From Thiohalobacter thiocyanaticus (GTDB lineage: Bacteria; Pseudomonadota; Gammaproteobacteria; Thiohalobacterales; Thiohalobacteraceae), in NCBI RefSeq assembly GCF_002356355.1, contig NZ_AP018052.1, forward strand, positions 992,001 through 1,056,000: DNA of 64,000 nt. Direction: 5' to 3'. How positions within the stretch are numbered: the stretch's first letter is position 1; every line of letters starts with the position of its first letter. The notes under the pieces were generated by a model that worked only from the letters and a program-made list of their open reading frames with translations, did not search any database and had not been told where the DNA came from. Below, in pieces: positions 3,338 to 38,488 of the stretch. Position numbers and translations under genes: made by a program.

Positions 3338-4078
3338 ATGAGCTTGAAACCACACCTGCTGGCCTTCGCCCGAACCCTGCGCGACAGCCTGCGCGATCTG
3401 GCGCCGATCTTCATCGTGATCGCCTTCTTTCAGCTGGTGGTGCTGCGTCAGCCCATTCCGGAACTGGAACAGATCCTGTTCGGGAGCCTGCTGGTGGTGG
3501 TGGGCCTGACCCTGTTCGTTCAGGGCCTGCGGTTGGGGCTGTTCCCGGTGGGCGAGAACATGGCCTATGCCTTCGCACGCAAGGGCAGTGTCACCTGGCT
3601 GCTGCTGTTCGCCTTTGCCCTGGGATTCGGTACCACGGTGGCGGAACCGGCGCTGATTGCGGTGGCCAGCAAGGCCAGTGCAGCTGCCGCCGAGGCGGGG
3701 CTGGTGACCGACAGCGAGGCCGCGCGCTATGCTTATGCCTGGGGGTTGCGCATCACTGTGGGCCTGGCCGTGGGCGTGGCGCTGGTTGTCGGCGTGCTGC
3801 GCATACTCCGCGGCTGGCCGATGCATGTCATGATTACCGCCGCCTATCTGCTGATGGTCGCCATCACGCCCTTCGCGCCGCGTGAGATCATGGGCATCGC
3901 CTATGATTTCGGCGCCGTGACGACTTCCGAAATCACCGTGCCGCTGGTTGCTGCGCTTGGCGTCGGGCTGGCATCGTCGATCACCGGCCGCAATCCCCTG
4001 GTCGACGGCTTCGGTCTGGTGGCCTTTGCATCGGTGATGCCGATGATCTTTGTCATGGTCTACGGGATACTGGGATGA
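3338..4078 (+). CDS. DUF1538 family membrane protein (first copy)
   Basis: A 246-residue polytopic inner-membrane protein of the DUF1538 family (PF07556), of unknown function. It has about seven hydrophobic segments. The conserved stretches are [19 protein letters not shown] near residues 95-115 and [22 protein letters not shown] followed by [18 protein letters not shown] near the C-terminus. Both recur in the next gene, so the two proteins are homologous and probably form a heteromeric complex. Its stop overlaps the start of the second copy in ATGA. The operon continues with a PII-like and a CBS protein, which suggests transport controlled by a nucleotide or metabolite. Translation starts at an ATG after GACGAGG. 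Confidence 0.88.
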
Positions 4079-9689: not shown

Positions 9690-11201
9690 ATGCCGTTTGA
9701 GGCCGAACAGAATCCCTCCGCCCCCGCGGCCGAGGCCGATACCATCGCTGCCGTCGACCTCGGTTCGAACAGCTTCCACATGATCGTCGCCAGCCAGGAC
9801 AACGGGCAGCTCAAGGTGCTGGACCGGCTGCGCGAGCCGGTGCGCCTGGCCGCGGGCCTGACCCCCGAGCACCGTCTGAGCGACGAGGCGCGCGCCCGCG
9901 CCCTGGCCTGCCTGGAGCGCTTCGGCCAGCGCCTGCGCGAATTTCCCTCCGGCGCGGTGCGGGCGGTCGGCACCAACACCCTGCGCCGCGCCAACCGCGA
10001 CGGCGCCTTTCTGGAACAGGCCCGCCAGGCCCTGGGTCATCCGATCGAGATCATCTCCGGTGTGGAGGAGGCGCGCCTGATCTACCAGGGCGTGAGCCAC
10101 AGCGTGGCCGCGGAGCCGGGACGGCGGCTGGTGTTGGATATCGGCGGCGGCAGCACCGAACTGATCGTCGGTGAGGGTTTTCTGCCCCTGTACATGGAAA
10201 GCCTCTATATGGGCTGTGTCTCCATGAGCCAGCGTTTCTTCCCGGACGGGGAGATCACCAAGGAAGGCATGCGCCGCGCCGTCCTGGCCGCTCAGCTGGA
10301 ATTCCGGCCGGTGCGGGCGCGGATTCGCAGTCTGTCCTGGCAGAGCGAGACGGGGGCCTCGGGGACAATCAAGGCGATCCGGGAAATCGTCATCAATGAG
10401 GGCTGGTCGGAGCAGGGCATCACTTATCAGGCGCTGAAGCGGCTGCGCAAGGCGCTGCTTGCCGCCGGCCATGTCGACCGACTGAATCTGAAGGGATTGT
10501 CCGACGAGCGCCGCCCGGTGCTGGCGGGCGGCTTTGCCATTCTGTTTGCCGCGTTCGAGGTGCTGAAGATGAAACGCATGAACGTCTCTACCGGTGCGCT
10601 GCGCGAAGGCCTGATGCTGGATCTGCTGGGACGTATGCGCCACGAGGATATCCGCGAGGCGACGATCGCGGCGATGGCGCAGCGCTACCAGGTGGATACC
10701 GAACATGCCCAGCGGGTGGAGCAGCTGGCACTGGCCTTCTTCGAACAGGTCCGGGGCTGCTGGGGCCTGAATGAGCAATGGCAGCAGTGGCTGCACTGGG
10801 CGGCCTGCCTGCACGAGGTGGGACTGATCATCGCGCACAGTCAGTATCACAAGCACGGCGCCTACCTGATCCAGCATTCGGATATGGCCGGCTTCTCGCT
10901 CGGCGAGCAGGCCCGGTTGGCCAGTCTGGTGCGCGGGCACCGGCGCAAGCTCAACAAGGAACTGTGGAAATCACAGCCGCCGCAGATGCTCTACATCACC
11001 CTGCTGCTGCGTCTGGCGGTGCTGTTGCAGCGGGGGCGGTCGGACCGGCTGCCCGCTGATCTGGCACTGGTCTGTGCCCCCGAAGGTATCTCGCTGCAGT
11101 TTCCCTCCGGCTGGCTGGAGGCCCATCCTCTGACCCGTGCCGGACTGGAAGAGGAACAGAACTACCTGGCCGCGGTGGGACTGCGGCTTGATTTCACCTG
11201 A
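9690..11201 (+). CDS. ppx: Exopolyphosphatase (Ppx/GppA family)
   Basis: A 503-residue phosphatase of the ASKHA fold that removes terminal phosphate from inorganic polyphosphate. The two ATPase-like phosphate loops are AAVDLGSNSFHMIVA (about 24-38) and VLDIGGGSTELIVGEG (about 148-163). The C-terminal half is the HD-like helical domain, with LHWAACLHEVGLIIAHSQYHKHGAYLI. AAGGGA lies about 9 bases before the ATG. The length fits long Ppx/GppA proteins. GppA (pppGpp hydrolysis) is an alternative, but placement beside phoBR-pstS favours polyphosphate. No ppk is visible. Confidence 0.92.
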   Translation: MPFEAEQNPSAPAAEADTIAAVDLGSNSFHMIVASQDNGQLKVLDRLREPVRLAAGLTPEHRLSDEARARALACLERFGQRLREFPSGAVRAVGTNTLRRANRDGAFLEQARQALGHPIEIISGVEEARLIYQGVSHSVAAEPGRRLVLDIGGGSTELIVGEGFLPLYMESLYMGCVSMSQRFFPDGEITKEGMRRAVLAAQLEFRPVRARIRSLSWQSETGASGTIKAIREIVINEGWSEQGITYQALKRLRKALLAAGHVDRLNLKGLSDERRPVLAGGFAILFAAFEVLKMKRMNVSTGALREGLMLDLLGRMRHEDIREATIAAMAQRYQVDTEHAQRVEQLALAFFEQVRGCWGLNEQWQQWLHWAACLHEVGLIIAHSQYHKHGAYLIQHSDMAGFSLGEQARLASLVRGHRRKLNKELWKSQPPQMLYITLLLRLAVLLQRGRSDRLPADLALVCAPEGISLQFPSGWLEAHPLTRAGLEEEQNYLAAVGLRLDFT

Positions 11202-11266: not shown

Positions 11267-11860
11267 TCAGCGCCCGATCCTGCGGGCGATCCAGAAATCC
11301 AGACTGGCGTAGCGGCCGGCGCCGGTGAAGAACAGCACCAGCAGCATGATGAAATAGGTGGCGGCGAATTCGATGCCGTTCTTCAGGACGGTAATGCTGC
11401 CGGCCTCCGTCAGCCAGCTGTAATTGCCATGTTCACGCAGGATATCCCGGGCCATATCACGCCGCTCCACGGCGTCTTCGATCAGGTCCGTGCGCCACTC
11501 CCAGGGTACGGTCAGTTCCGTTTCCGGCAGTACGTGCCAGCCATTGTCCCAGTGTGCGGTGGCGGCGGCCACGATCATGGTGAACATGAGCGGAATGGCG
11601 GCCCAGCGGGTGGCGAGGCCGATCAGGAGCAGGATGCCGCCGACCAGTTCGCTCAGGACGGCCAGGTAGACCATCAGTTCCGGCGCCGGCATGCCGAGCC
11701 AGGCGAACCATTGGGCGACATTGTCCACATTTGCCAGCTTGTTGCTGCCTGCCAGGATGAAAATGGGCGCGAGAAACAGCCGCAGGGCCAGCGGGGCAAT
11801 GAAATCCAGGGCGCGGGTACGGTCGAGCAGGTTCTGCAGACGCAGCATCAGTTGCAGCAT
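11267..11860 (-). CDS. DoxX family membrane protein of the bufferin/Hvf copper-peptide operon (HvfX/GigT-like)
   Basis: A 197-residue DoxX-family inner-membrane protein with four hydrophobic segments. Typical blocks are LALRLFLAPIFILAGSNKL and VLSELVGGILLLIGLATRWAA. Between the third and fourth segments it has an insertion (DNGWHVLPETELTVPWEW... to about residue 155) typical of DoxX proteins found next to DUF692 enzymes. The ATG at 11860 has AAGGAGAA at ideal distance. It is the fourth gene of the operon hvfA-B-C-X, 130 bases after hvfC. In related loci (gigPABT of Cupriavidus, hvf of Haemophilus) a DoxX protein completes the set; its biochemical role is unsettled. Confidence 0.88.
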   Translation of the reverse strand: MLQLMLRLQNLLDRTRALDFIAPLALRLFLAPIFILAGSNKLANVDNVAQWFAWLGMPAPELMVYLAVLSELVGGILLLIGLATRWAAIPLMFTMIVAAATAHWDNGWHVLPETELTVPWEWRTDLIEDAVERRDMARDILREHGNYSWLTEAGSITVLKNGIEFAATYFIMLLVLFFTGAGRYASLDFWIARRIGR

Positions 11861-11990
11861 GGCTGTTCTCCTTGTTTTACGGGTTGCGTGACGACAGGCA
11901 GGGAATGCGCACCCCTGCAAATACTGTACTGTCCGGTCCATATTTATGGAAGACGAATCGGGATCGGAGCCAGGCATGGGTATTCCGATA

Positions 11991-12770
11991 TCAGTCTGTA
12001 GTGTGGGGGCTGTGGAGGATCCGCCGGTGCTGCCAGTCGGCCAGGATGCCGCGGCCGCCGGTAATGACCACGTCGGGCTCGGAGTGCCCGAGTTCGACGG
12101 TGATCTGTTCCAGCGCCTGGCGGGCGGTGTAGCCCGGGTCGCCGGCACGCTCCAGCAGCAGCGCCAGCAGCCGCGCACTCACCGCATTGAGTTCGATGAA
12201 GCGTACCTCATCGTCCGGATCGCGATACAGCAGCAGGTAGGTCGGTGCCGGCGGTGGTGCGTCGGGCTGGTAATCGGGGCCGATCCGGTGGACCGGAAAG
12301 CGGTAGCTGAAGGGCCAGGCCAGCGGCGAGACCTGCAGCGGCGTATCGAGCAGTCCGGCATCAGTGATGCCGGCCGCCGGGGGGAGTTGCTCGTCGGCGA
12401 CCGACAGCGCCAGCTCTGCCCATTCGTAATGGGCCAGTTCATACAGGAAGGGCGGATCCCCGGCATGGGCATCGCGGCTGTGTTCCAGATAGGTCAGGAA
12501 CTCGCGCGGGATATCGAGAAAATAGGGCGAATGGCAGCGGTGCCGGACCAGAAAGTCGCGCATCATCTCCTGCCACTGCGCCTCCGGCAGCAGTTGGTGG
12601 AGCACGGGCAGGGTTCCGGCCAGAAAGCTGCTGATGTTGTTGATGAACAATTCGCGATAGATCGCCATGCGCCGATCTTCCACATCGGCGGGTGCGGGCT
12701 GATGCGCCGGATCGCGGATATGCGCGGCGAAGGCGAACTGGGTGGCCTGGAAATCACCGGTCTCAGCCAT
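11991..12770 (-). CDS. DUF2063 protein, RiPP maturation partner (HvfC/BufC-like)
   Basis: A 259-residue protein of the DUF2063 family. The N-terminal half is the helical DNA-binding-like domain (FAAHIRDP, then [28 protein letters not shown]). The C-terminal half is a mixed domain resembling RiPP precursor-recognition modules ([37 protein letters not shown]). DUF2063 proteins form a complex with the DUF692 enzyme and help bind its peptide substrate. The ATG at 12770 overlaps the stop of the DUF692 gene by eight bases, which implies translational coupling. A longer open frame upstream is only a shadow of hvfB. Confidence 0.9.
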
Positions 12771-13632
12771 GCTCGGCTCCGGCCGGGGCTGAGGCCGGTT
12801 GAGCCCCGGCGTGTCTGCGCTGCAGGTCCAGGATATGGTCCAGTTCACCCAGCAGCTGCGGCAGCGGCGGTATGTTGAAGTCGCGCTCCAGCAGGGTCGG
12901 GATGACGCCGAAGCGGGCGTAGGTCTTGTCCAGCAACGCCCACACCGGATCGATGACATCGGCACCATGGGTATCGACGATCAGGTCCTCGGCCTCGTTG
13001 TAGTGGCCGGCGACATGGATGTAGGCGATGCGCCCGGGGTCGACCCGGGCGAGAAAGGCCTCGGGGTCATAGCCGTGATTGACGCTGTTGACGTAGATGT
13101 TGTTCACGTCCAGCAGCAGGTCGCAGTCGGCCTCCTCCAGGACGGCGTTGATGAATTCGATCTCGCTCATCTCCTGCTGCGGTGCGGCATAGTAGGAGAC
13201 ATTTTCCACCGCGATGCGGCGTTCCAGGATGTCCTGGGTACGGCGGATGCGCTGCGCCACATGGTGGATGGCGGCTTCGGTGAAGGGGATGGGCATGAGG
13301 TCATAGAGATGCCCGTCGTCGCTGCAATAGCTCAGATGCTCGGTGCAGCAGCGTATCCTGTGTTCATCCAGGAAACGCCTGGTCTTGTGAATGAGGGCCT
13401 CATCCAGCGGTGCGGGTCCGCCGAGTGACAGCGACAGGCCGTGGGTGACGAAGGGATAGCGCTCGGTGAATTCGCGCAGCTGTCGACCGAAGCGGCCGCC
13501 CACGCCGATCCAGTTCTCCGGGGCCACCTCCATGAAGTGCACCTGTTCGGGGGAATGGTCCGCGAGCGGACCCATCAGGGTCCGCCGCAGTCCCAGTCCG
13601 GCGCCGGTGATAGGATAGCTTGCCGAACTCAC
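12763..13632 (-). CDS. DUF692 multinuclear non-heme iron oxygenase (MNIO), RiPP peptide maturase (HvfB/BufB-like)
   Basis: A 289-residue TIM-barrel enzyme of the DUF692/MNIO family. Members use two or three iron ions and O2 to convert Cys residues of a precursor peptide into oxazolone-thioamide or thiooxazole groups that bind copper. Candidate metal ligands are in family positions: H64 (FVTHGLSLS), E98-H99 (TEHLSYCS), E143 (VENVSYY), D175 and N177 ([10 protein letters not shown]), H206 and H210 (IHVAGHY), D220 and H222 (VDTHGADV). The start is GTG at 13632, 12 bases after the precursor gene. The substrate is almost certainly the EGKCG protein encoded immediately upstream. Confidence 0.93.
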
Positions 13633-13644
13633 GGGGCCAGTCCG

Positions 13645-13965
13645 TTACTGGTTACCGCCGCACTTGCCTTCACCGCACTTGCCTTCGGCCTTGTCCTTCT
13701 TGCCGCCGCACTTGCCTTCACCGCATTTGCCCTCGGCCTTGCCCTTCTTGTCCTTGTCGCAGTTCTCGCGGTCCTTGTCCTTCTTGCCGCCGCACTTGCC
13801 TTCGCCGCATTTGCCCTCGTGGGCATCGGCCACCATATAGCCGGAGGCGAGTTCGGCCTGCTGGAAGGGGTTTTCCGCTGCGCCGACGCTGCCGGCGGCG
13901 AGGCTGGCGGCAAAGGCGGTGCCGATGGCGAGTGACAGGGGCTTGCGGTTGGAATGCTGTGACAT
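13645..13965 (-). CDS. EGKCG-repeat copper-peptide precursor (HvfA/bufferin-like RiPP)
   Basis: A 106-residue secreted precursor. Residues 1-29 are a signal peptide (SLAIGTAFAASLAAGSVGA). A conserved lead-in (ELASGYMVADAH, 38-49) is followed by three blocks EGKCGEGKCGG at 50-60, 78-88 and 94-104, giving six EGKCG motifs. Lys/Asp-rich linkers separate them, one with a seventh Cys (RENC, Cys69). In the Haemophilus HvfA and bufferin families the central Cys of each EGKCG is modified by the DUF692 enzyme and the peptide binds copper in the periplasm. The ATG at 13965 has GGAGG eight bases away; a start at 14001 would bury the signal peptide. The three near-identical blocks point to internal duplication. 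Confidence 0.92.
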   Translation of the reverse strand: MSQHSNRKPLSLAIGTAFAASLAAGSVGAAENPFQQAELASGYMVADAHEGKCGEGKCGGKKDKDRENCDKDKKGKAEGKCGEGKCGGKKDKAEGKCGEGKCGGNQ

Positions 13966-14104
13966 GGTCGTACCTCCAGTTGTCTTGTTGTGCCGGCTCA
14001 TGGGAGCCGGTCGGGTCTTCAGCGCCGGCCGGGCCGGAACTGCATTGCATGTGACCCGCGATGGCGGATAAAGGTTCCATCGGATTTCGGGCCACTTTCA
14101 GTGA

Positions 14105-14131
14105 AGACAGCCGCCGGGAGTCACGGTTCCC
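14105..14131 (-). promoter_or_regulatory. Possible ECF-sigma promoter of the copper-peptide operon
   Basis: Read on the minus strand, GGGAACC (14131-14125) and GTCT (14108-14105) are separated by 16 bases, in the style of ECF sigma promoters. A second TGGAACC lies at 14079-14073. DUF692 operons elsewhere are often ECF-controlled. No sigma or anti-sigma gene is visible here, so this is tentative. Confidence 0.25.
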
Positions 14132-14162
14132 GGATTATCGTAAATATGGACCGATCAGTCCA

Positions 14163-14810
14163 CTAGGGCCTTTCGACCGGCTCTGACTTGTGCCGGTACT
14201 CGCACAGATCATGGATCAGACAGCCCGGACAGCGCGGCCGGCGTGCGGTGCAGGTATAGCGACCGTGCAGGATCAGCCAGTGGTGCGCGTTCCTGAGATA
14301 GGGTTCGGGCACGACCTTGAGCAGTTTTTTTTCGACCTGCAGCACGGTCTTCCCGGGGGCGATGCCGGTGCGGTTGGCCACGCGGAATATATGAGTGTCG
14401 ACGGCGATGGTCGGTTCACCGAAGGCAGTATTGAGGATCACGTTGGCGGTCTTGCGCCCCACGCCGGGCAGGGCCTCGAGTGCCTCGCGCTCGCCCGGTA
14501 CCCGGCCGCCGTGCCGCTCGGCCAGGATGCGGCAGGTGGCAATGATGTTGCTGGCCTTGCTGTTGTACAGGCCGATGGTCCTGATGTGCCGCTTCAGACC
14601 TGCCTCGCCAAGTTCGAGCATGGCCTGAGGGGTGCGGACCTGGCGAAACAGGGCGGCCGTGGCCTGGTTCACACTGCGGTCGGTGGCCTGGGCGGAGAGG
14701 ATCACCGCGATCAGCAGCTGGAAACGGTTGCCGTAATGCAACTCGGTGGTCGGGTCGGGGTTGGCTTCCTGGAAGCGCTTGAAAATGGCCTCGCGCTTGG
14801 ACTTGTTCAT
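14163..14810 (-). CDS. nth: Endonuclease III
   Basis: A 215-residue DNA glycosylase/AP lyase that removes oxidised pyrimidines. The helix-hairpin-helix LPGVGRKTANVI has the catalytic Lys120, and Asp138 follows in IAVDTHIFRVANR. The [4Fe-4S] ligands are Cys-x6-Cys-x2-Cys-x5-Cys in CTARRPRCPGCLIHDLC. The start MNKSKREAIF aligns with the E. coli start MNKAKR, although no strong ribosome site is seen. In many gammaproteobacteria nth follows rnfE directly; here the same-strand order is kept but a 3-kb gene on the other strand lies between. Confidence 0.95.
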   Translation of the reverse strand: MNKSKREAIFKRFQEANPDPTTELHYGNRFQLLIAVILSAQATDRSVNQATAALFRQVRTPQAMLELGEAGLKRHIRTIGLYNSKASNIIATCRILAERHGGRVPGEREALEALPGVGRKTANVILNTAFGEPTIAVDTHIFRVANRTGIAPGKTVLQVEKKLLKVVPEPYLRNAHHWLILHGRYTCTARRPRCPGCLIHDLCEYRHKSEPVERP

Positions 14811-38130: not shown

Positions 38131-38480
38131 CGAGTCGGCCGGGCAGTCGCGGGGATCCACGGGATCCTCGAGGAAAGTCCGGGCTCCACAGGGCAGGGTG
38201 CCAGGTAACGCCTGGGGGGCGCGAGCCTACGGAAAGTGCCACAGAAAACACACCGCCGATGGCCCACGGGCACAGGTAAGGGTGAAAAGGTGCGGTAAGA
38301 GCGCACCGCGCGGGTGGCAACACGCCGCGGCAGGGTAAACCCCACCCGGAGCAAGACCAAATAGGGAGGCCAGGATGCGGCCCGCATCGCCTCCGGGTAG
38401 GTCGCTTGAGACAGCCGGTGACGGCTGTTCCAGAGGAATGACTGTCCCCGACAGAACCCGGCTTACAGGCCGGCTCGATT
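38131..38480 (+). ncRNA. rnpB: RNase P RNA (class A)
   Basis: The catalytic RNA that matures tRNA 5' ends. The conserved core elements appear in order: GAGGAAAGTCCGGGCTCC near 38171, the AGTGCCACAGAAA segment near 38234, GAGCAAGACCAAATAGGG near 38350, and ACAGAACCCGGCTTACAGG near 38450. The 5' CGAGTCGGCC pairs with 3' GGCCGGCTCG to close helix P1, which sets the ends at about 38131 and 38480. The length (about 350 bases) is usual. The open frames crossing it are not genes. Confidence 0.95.
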
Positions 38481-38488
38481 TGACTCGC

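Follow-up and report, generated by a model that had tools for sequence, protein, structure and literature searches.

Conserved operators suggest that a CifR-like TetR repressor controls the EGKCG captophorin (hvf) locus of Thiohalobacter

MNIO loci are known in the tens of thousands; where control of related clusters has been reported, it lies with ECF sigma factors and RpoS. The locus analyzed here lies in a 64-kb stretch of the Thiohalobacter thiocyanaticus genome (64,000 nucleotides, hereafter the window) and raises two questions, namely, to which branch of this group it belongs and what turns it on. The initial annotation had described a complete bufferin/Hvf-type copper-peptide operon of four genes, for a precursor, a DUF692/MNIO oxidase, a DUF2063 partner, and a DoxX protein. 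All four are indeed present on the minus strand, with Pfam and NCBIfam support.

hvfA, 13645..13965, minus strand: 106-aa captophorin precursor of the EGKCG type with a Sec-type signal sequence at the N terminus, NCBIfam NF050137 over cut-off
hvfB, 12763..13632, minus strand: MNIO (DUF692) maturase, 289 aa, GTG start; Pfam PF05114, NCBIfam HvfB
hvfC, 11991..12770, minus strand: DUF2063 and RRE-type partner (PME type 1), 259 aa; Pfam DUF2063 and NGO1945_C
hvfX, 11860-11267, minus strand: DoxX-family membrane protein, 197 aa; Pfam DoxX, NCBIfam HvfX

The family matches of these genes are far beyond chance. Pfam returned E-values of 1.6e-105 for HvfB (MbnB_TglH_ChrH), 7.3e-26 for HvfC (DUF2063), and 1.6e-24 for HvfX (DoxX). 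NCBIfam scores were 440.7 bits for HvfB (cut-off, 360), 316.8 bits for HvfC (cut-off, 142), 203.3 bits for HvfX (cut-off, 80), and 40.6 bits for the precursor against the HvfA repeat-domain model NF050137 (cut-off, 19.5); against the strict HvfA equivalog NF050188, the precursor fell below the cut-off (39 vs 95 bits). Judged by sequence, each of the four Hvf proteins is an intact member of its family. The endonuclease III gene nth (ending at 14163) lies upstream of hvfA, whose ATG is preceded by a GGAGG ribosome-binding site; the start of hvfC overlaps the end of hvfB (window 12763-12770), and a Ppx/GppA gene on the plus strand (9690-11201) is convergent with the hvf genes.

A 25-nt inverted repeat is common to the gap between hvfC and hvfX and the promoter of hvfA. 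The following elements are predicted there.

Operator O1 (predicted), 14147..14162, minus strand: hvfA promoter, TGGACTGATCGGTCCA; conserved in three genomes, outgroup matrix score 26.5 bits
Operator O2 (predicted), 11925..11940, minus strand: hvfC-hvfX gap, TGGACCGGACAGTACA; conserved in three genomes, outgroup matrix score 22.4 bits
hvfABC promoter (predicted, sigma-70 type), 14134..14162, minus strand: TGGACT - 17 - GATAAT, from a consensus scan

Both operators are kept in all three Thiohalobacter genomes, one of which is an incomplete MAG, and the 12-mer that they have in common occurs nowhere else in the 3.23-Mb genome. O1 overlaps the predicted promoter, as expected of a repressor site. 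The promoter agrees with the consensus at 9 of 12 positions and is plausible, if statistically weak alone (1 found vs 0.6 expected in shuffles). The interval drawn at first ends at 14131, short of the hvfA operator and the predicted promoter (14134-14162). Because O2 lies in the hvfC-hvfX gap, where it would mark a second regulated promoter, the four hvf genes probably form two transcription units, hvfABC and hvfX. The four genes in a row described initially thus stand, and the single unit probably gives way to two.

The ~160 nt separating the hvfA start from its predicted promoter (window 13966-14133) also contain a box, GCGGGTCACATGCAATGCAG.TCCGGCCCGGCCGGC, which is conserved in 3/3 Thiohalobacter genomes, not obviously coding, and without an Rfam match. 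Over the window, Rfam found no known riboswitch at the operon, its sole match being bacterial RNase P RNA class A at 38131-38481.

The initial annotation had left the regulator as an inference; genome comparison now points to a TetR repressor encoded elsewhere. A CifR-like TetR gene is located 0.58 Mb from hvf (G000:C1:1587374-1587961; TetR_N, 1.5e-13; TetR_C_13, 1.6e-13), with orthologues of 93-97% identity in 3/3 genomes of the genus. The same palindrome, with small differences, stands before tetR and again behind it, ahead of the next gene, which encodes an AhpD/carboxymuconolactone-type, peroxidase-related protein; this arrangement is found in all three genomes. In this genome, exact copies of the 15-mer GGACTGATCGGTCCA are confined to the promoters of hvfA and tetR. 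CifR of Pseudomonas aeruginosa reportedly represses cif. This protein is a close solved relative over nearly the full length (PDB 6nsn, 6nsr, and 6nsm; 3.5e-24 against 6nsn) and shares the cysteine of its RGCLV motif, which aligns with TetR Cys106 and is replaced by Ser in 6nsm. Cys106 is invariant in 13 orthologues. Unlike CifR, the Thiohalobacter TetR has an AhpD-like gene as its neighbor.

TetR orthologues of other organisms are 44-58% identical. Most have a similar palindrome ahead of their own gene or close behind it, and at least ten other organisms show the palindrome at their TetR-AhpD loci. An outgroup matrix was built from 17 sites around TetR orthologue genes, picked by eye, with the Thiohalobacter sequences left out. 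Across the 64-kb window, this matrix ranked the hvfA site first (26.5 bits) and the hvfX site second (22.4 bits), followed at a distance by a position scoring 9.0 bits. The hvfA/hvfX sites of the two congeners scored 26.5/25.0 and 19.7/24.2 bits, and no position in 3.23 Mb of simulated sequence reached 19.6 bits. When the whole genome was searched with a sequence-only model, the best match was the tetR-AhpD gap and the next best was hvfA, with O2 coming out weaker in this search (10.1 bits in the window). The genome-wide search also matched position 890551, within a long reading frame, probably by chance. Taken together, these observations lead us to consider it quite probable that the captophorin locus is repressed at two promoters by the CifR-like TetR, a switch that is newly predicted and well supported in this genus. 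A TetR regulator is not named in the surveys of MNIO loci compared here; the operator evidence puts a name to a specific repressor, two promoters, and one co-regulated gene.

The operator is not a general feature of hvf clusters, as it was not found at 37 hvf/MNIO loci outside the genus (best matrix score, 13.7 bits). Because it is also missing from the hvf promoters of those outside genomes that carry a TetR orthologue, the TetR-hvf link appears to be lineage specific. Two betaproteobacterial-looking MAGs (L172 and L173) have the operator 60-80 nt ahead of an ECF sigma gene, with an hvf operon 3-6 kb past that gene; the promoter of this hvf operon is without the operator. Neighbors of the TetR orthologues include AhpD-like, peroxiredoxin-like (L124), and DsrE2 (L172 and, by sequence, also L173) genes. 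Also encoded in L173 (5733-5960), and in L128 and L130 as well, is a 75-aa protein (MSISDIMIHIDQSLNTEAR...) without a Pfam or NCBIfam match; it follows an operator and adjoins the AhpD-like gene close to the TetR orthologue.

Other regulators were considered for the palindrome. IscR-type and MerR/CueR-type motifs have spacing and half-sites unlike those of the hvf palindrome, and these readings were dropped, as the TetR orthologue sites match instead. The RND-efflux TetR of L086 was rejected as an hvf regulator: its palindrome is longer and has another core, and it scored 13.6 bits, a value reached 6 times in simulated sequence. This TetR gene (L086:3308-3964) is divergent from an RND efflux operon, with a perfect, genus-conserved palindrome, TTGGACTGGACCGTCCAGTCCAA, in the gap (3990-4014). 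A second pair of TetR and peroxidase-related genes (L087:3361-4628) is flanked by TTGACCGGTCAGTCTA-type palindromes ~680 nt apart, and a similar pair of sites was seen at L088 (G003:C50).

How might such a switch work, and what would it sense? In the scheme that we infer, HvfB and HvfC would convert the six EGKCG cysteines of HvfA into 5-thiooxazoles with a loss of 4 H each, and the modified peptide would be exported by Sec and bind several Cu(I) in the periplasm, with HvfX helping at the membrane and Cys69 remaining a free thiol. TetR would leave the DNA once its Cys106 or its pocket meets a thiol-reactive compound, and its release would allow joint production of the copper buffer, the thiol-peroxidase-like protein, and the DoxX protein. 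The Haemophilus influenzae hvf cluster is RpoE2 controlled under HOCl stress (PMC7907618), and P. aeruginosa depends on its AhpD-like RclX to withstand HOCl (PMC7950407). In light of these HOCl-linked systems, the invariant Cys106, and the neighbor genes of the orthologues, the signal is probably thiol reactive, be it an oxidant, an electrophile, reactive sulfur, or copper. We see the chances as even for the broader proposal that a copper peptide under a single-Cys TetR, shared with an AhpD-like gene, belongs to a thiol/reactive-sulfur/oxidant regulon and not to a copper-sensing one, with a TetR-family operator placed elsewhere before an ECF sigma gene near hvf. If true, thiol stress, and not copper itself, can be the cue to which a copper-binding peptide is wired.

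A narrower version, in which the operon and its TetR are the same and the signal is reactive sulfur (polysulfide or persulfide), would tie copper buffering to sulfur/thiocyanate oxidation. Thiohalobacter oxidizes thiocyanate with a copper enzyme (PMC6504805), the TetR has one invariant Cys, and the gene for the sulfur carrier DsrE2 adjoins the TetR-AhpD genes in two MAGs; however, no DsrE2 gene lies directly beside the Thiohalobacter tetR, and we regard this version as possible and somewhat unlikely. Alternatively, this could be an ordinary captophorin operon induced by copper or gold, its palindromes serving a copper regulator or having no regulatory role. Captophorins do bind copper (PMC13097082), and related GIG operons respond to gold and copper (PMC5413113). 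Nevertheless, the palindrome is the same as that at the TetR-AhpD loci of the ten or more other organisms noted above, and a matrix made from TetR-AhpD sites only picked out the hvf sites as the top two of the window, leaving a copper regulator improbable in our view and the TetR switch as the preferred reading.

The type of the locus is best judged against the closest known systems. The fontiphorin cluster of Fontimonas thermophila (fonABC) and the oxazolin cluster of H. influenzae (hvfABCX) likewise combine an EGKCG precursor that carries a signal sequence with an MNIO and a DUF2063-RRE partner. Oxazolin also includes a DoxX gene; the Fon cluster is without one, whereas the Thiohalobacter locus has hvfX. 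Oxazolin is under the ECF sigma factor RpoE2, in contrast to the two predicted TetR operators here. The bufferins Buf1 (DUF2282) and Buf2, including the Legionella GIG operon, share the precursor-MNIO-DUF2063-DoxX order and a likely copper role but have other precursor families and, in Buf1, sigma/NrsF regulators. That the locus is a bufferin operon proper (Buf1 or Buf2), as the gene order, the related MNIO, and a sub-cut-off BufB match might suggest, is scarcely credible and is refuted by the precursor type: the MNIO falls below the NCBIfam BufB cut-off (269.1 vs 310 bits), the Pfam search of the precursor matched no family and hence not DUF2282, the EGKCG repeats also disfavor a Buf2 precursor (Buf_6/12Cys), and the genome has a single MNIO gene. 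Of the original "bufferin/Hvf-type" label, the Hvf part is borne out by NCBIfam and the bufferin part is not. By sequence, the locus is an EGKCG captophorin/oxazolin cluster, of a large known family, and, the regulation aside, a normal member of it.

The active site of HvfB fits this placement. H64, H99, E143, N178, H206, D220, H222, and D251 are invariant across 31 sequences (alignment with 3bww and 30 relatives); the iron ligands and the catalytic Asp of this HvfB-type MNIO are intact, and the loss of DUF692 metal ligands, named initially as a finding that would count against the assignment, was not seen on alignment. In FonB, Arg15/Arg16 and Phe250 set Lys-Cys specificity, and the Asp-Phe residues are tied to catalysis (PMC13097082). 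R16/R17 and D251-F252 of HvfB match these residues by motif; the fontiphorin and oxazolin MNIOs have the same ligands and the same Arg-Arg and Asp-Phe residues. The H. influenzae MNIO requires each of N175, D242, and H244 for activity (PMC13419390), and these should match the conserved LDVNN and VDTHG motifs of HvfB.

The precursor itself, whose signal sequence was recognized by eye, has EGKCG motifs at residues 50, 55, 78, 83, 94, and 99, forming three EGKCGEGKCGG blocks, and seven Cys in all, with Cys69 outside EGKCG. This agrees with the motif count and stray cysteine reported initially; a special status of the six motifs in three blocks does not survive comparison. In relatives, EGKCG-type precursors encoded at the corresponding position have, for the most part, 2 to 11 exact motifs, oxazolin has six modified Cys (PMC13419390), fontiphorin has seven, which become 5-thiooxazoles at a cost of 4 H each (PMC13097082), and published precursors reach 58 Cys (PMC12452194), so that six motifs are normal for the family and the three-block architecture is not unusual. 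Within the genus, the count is 6 here and 8 and 7 in two congeners, the eight-motif precursor having four regular blocks; block number appears to drift through repeat gain and loss. Of the modifications first listed (oxazolone/thioamide or thiooxazole), the older assignment has since been revised in print to 5-thiooxazole, so that each motif loses 4 H, for the EGKCG class (PMC13097082, PMC13419390). With six motifs at 4 H each, HvfA would be expected to change in mass by about -24 Da.

The cysteine outside EGKCG sets the Thiohalobacter precursor apart from fontiphorin and oxazolin. Cys69 is absent from the precursors of both congeners, which rules it out as a conserved residue and marks it, by sequence, as a species-level oddity. 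It is followed directly by Asp (REN-C-DKD), and because FonBC does not process a Cys preceding a charged residue (PMC13097082), Cys69 likely stays unmodified; this gives indirect support to the initial proposal for this residue. In the precursors encoded upstream of hvfB at three other loci (L007, L013, and L025), EF-hand-like stretches such as VDADKDGRVSQAEF lie between the EGKCG motifs.
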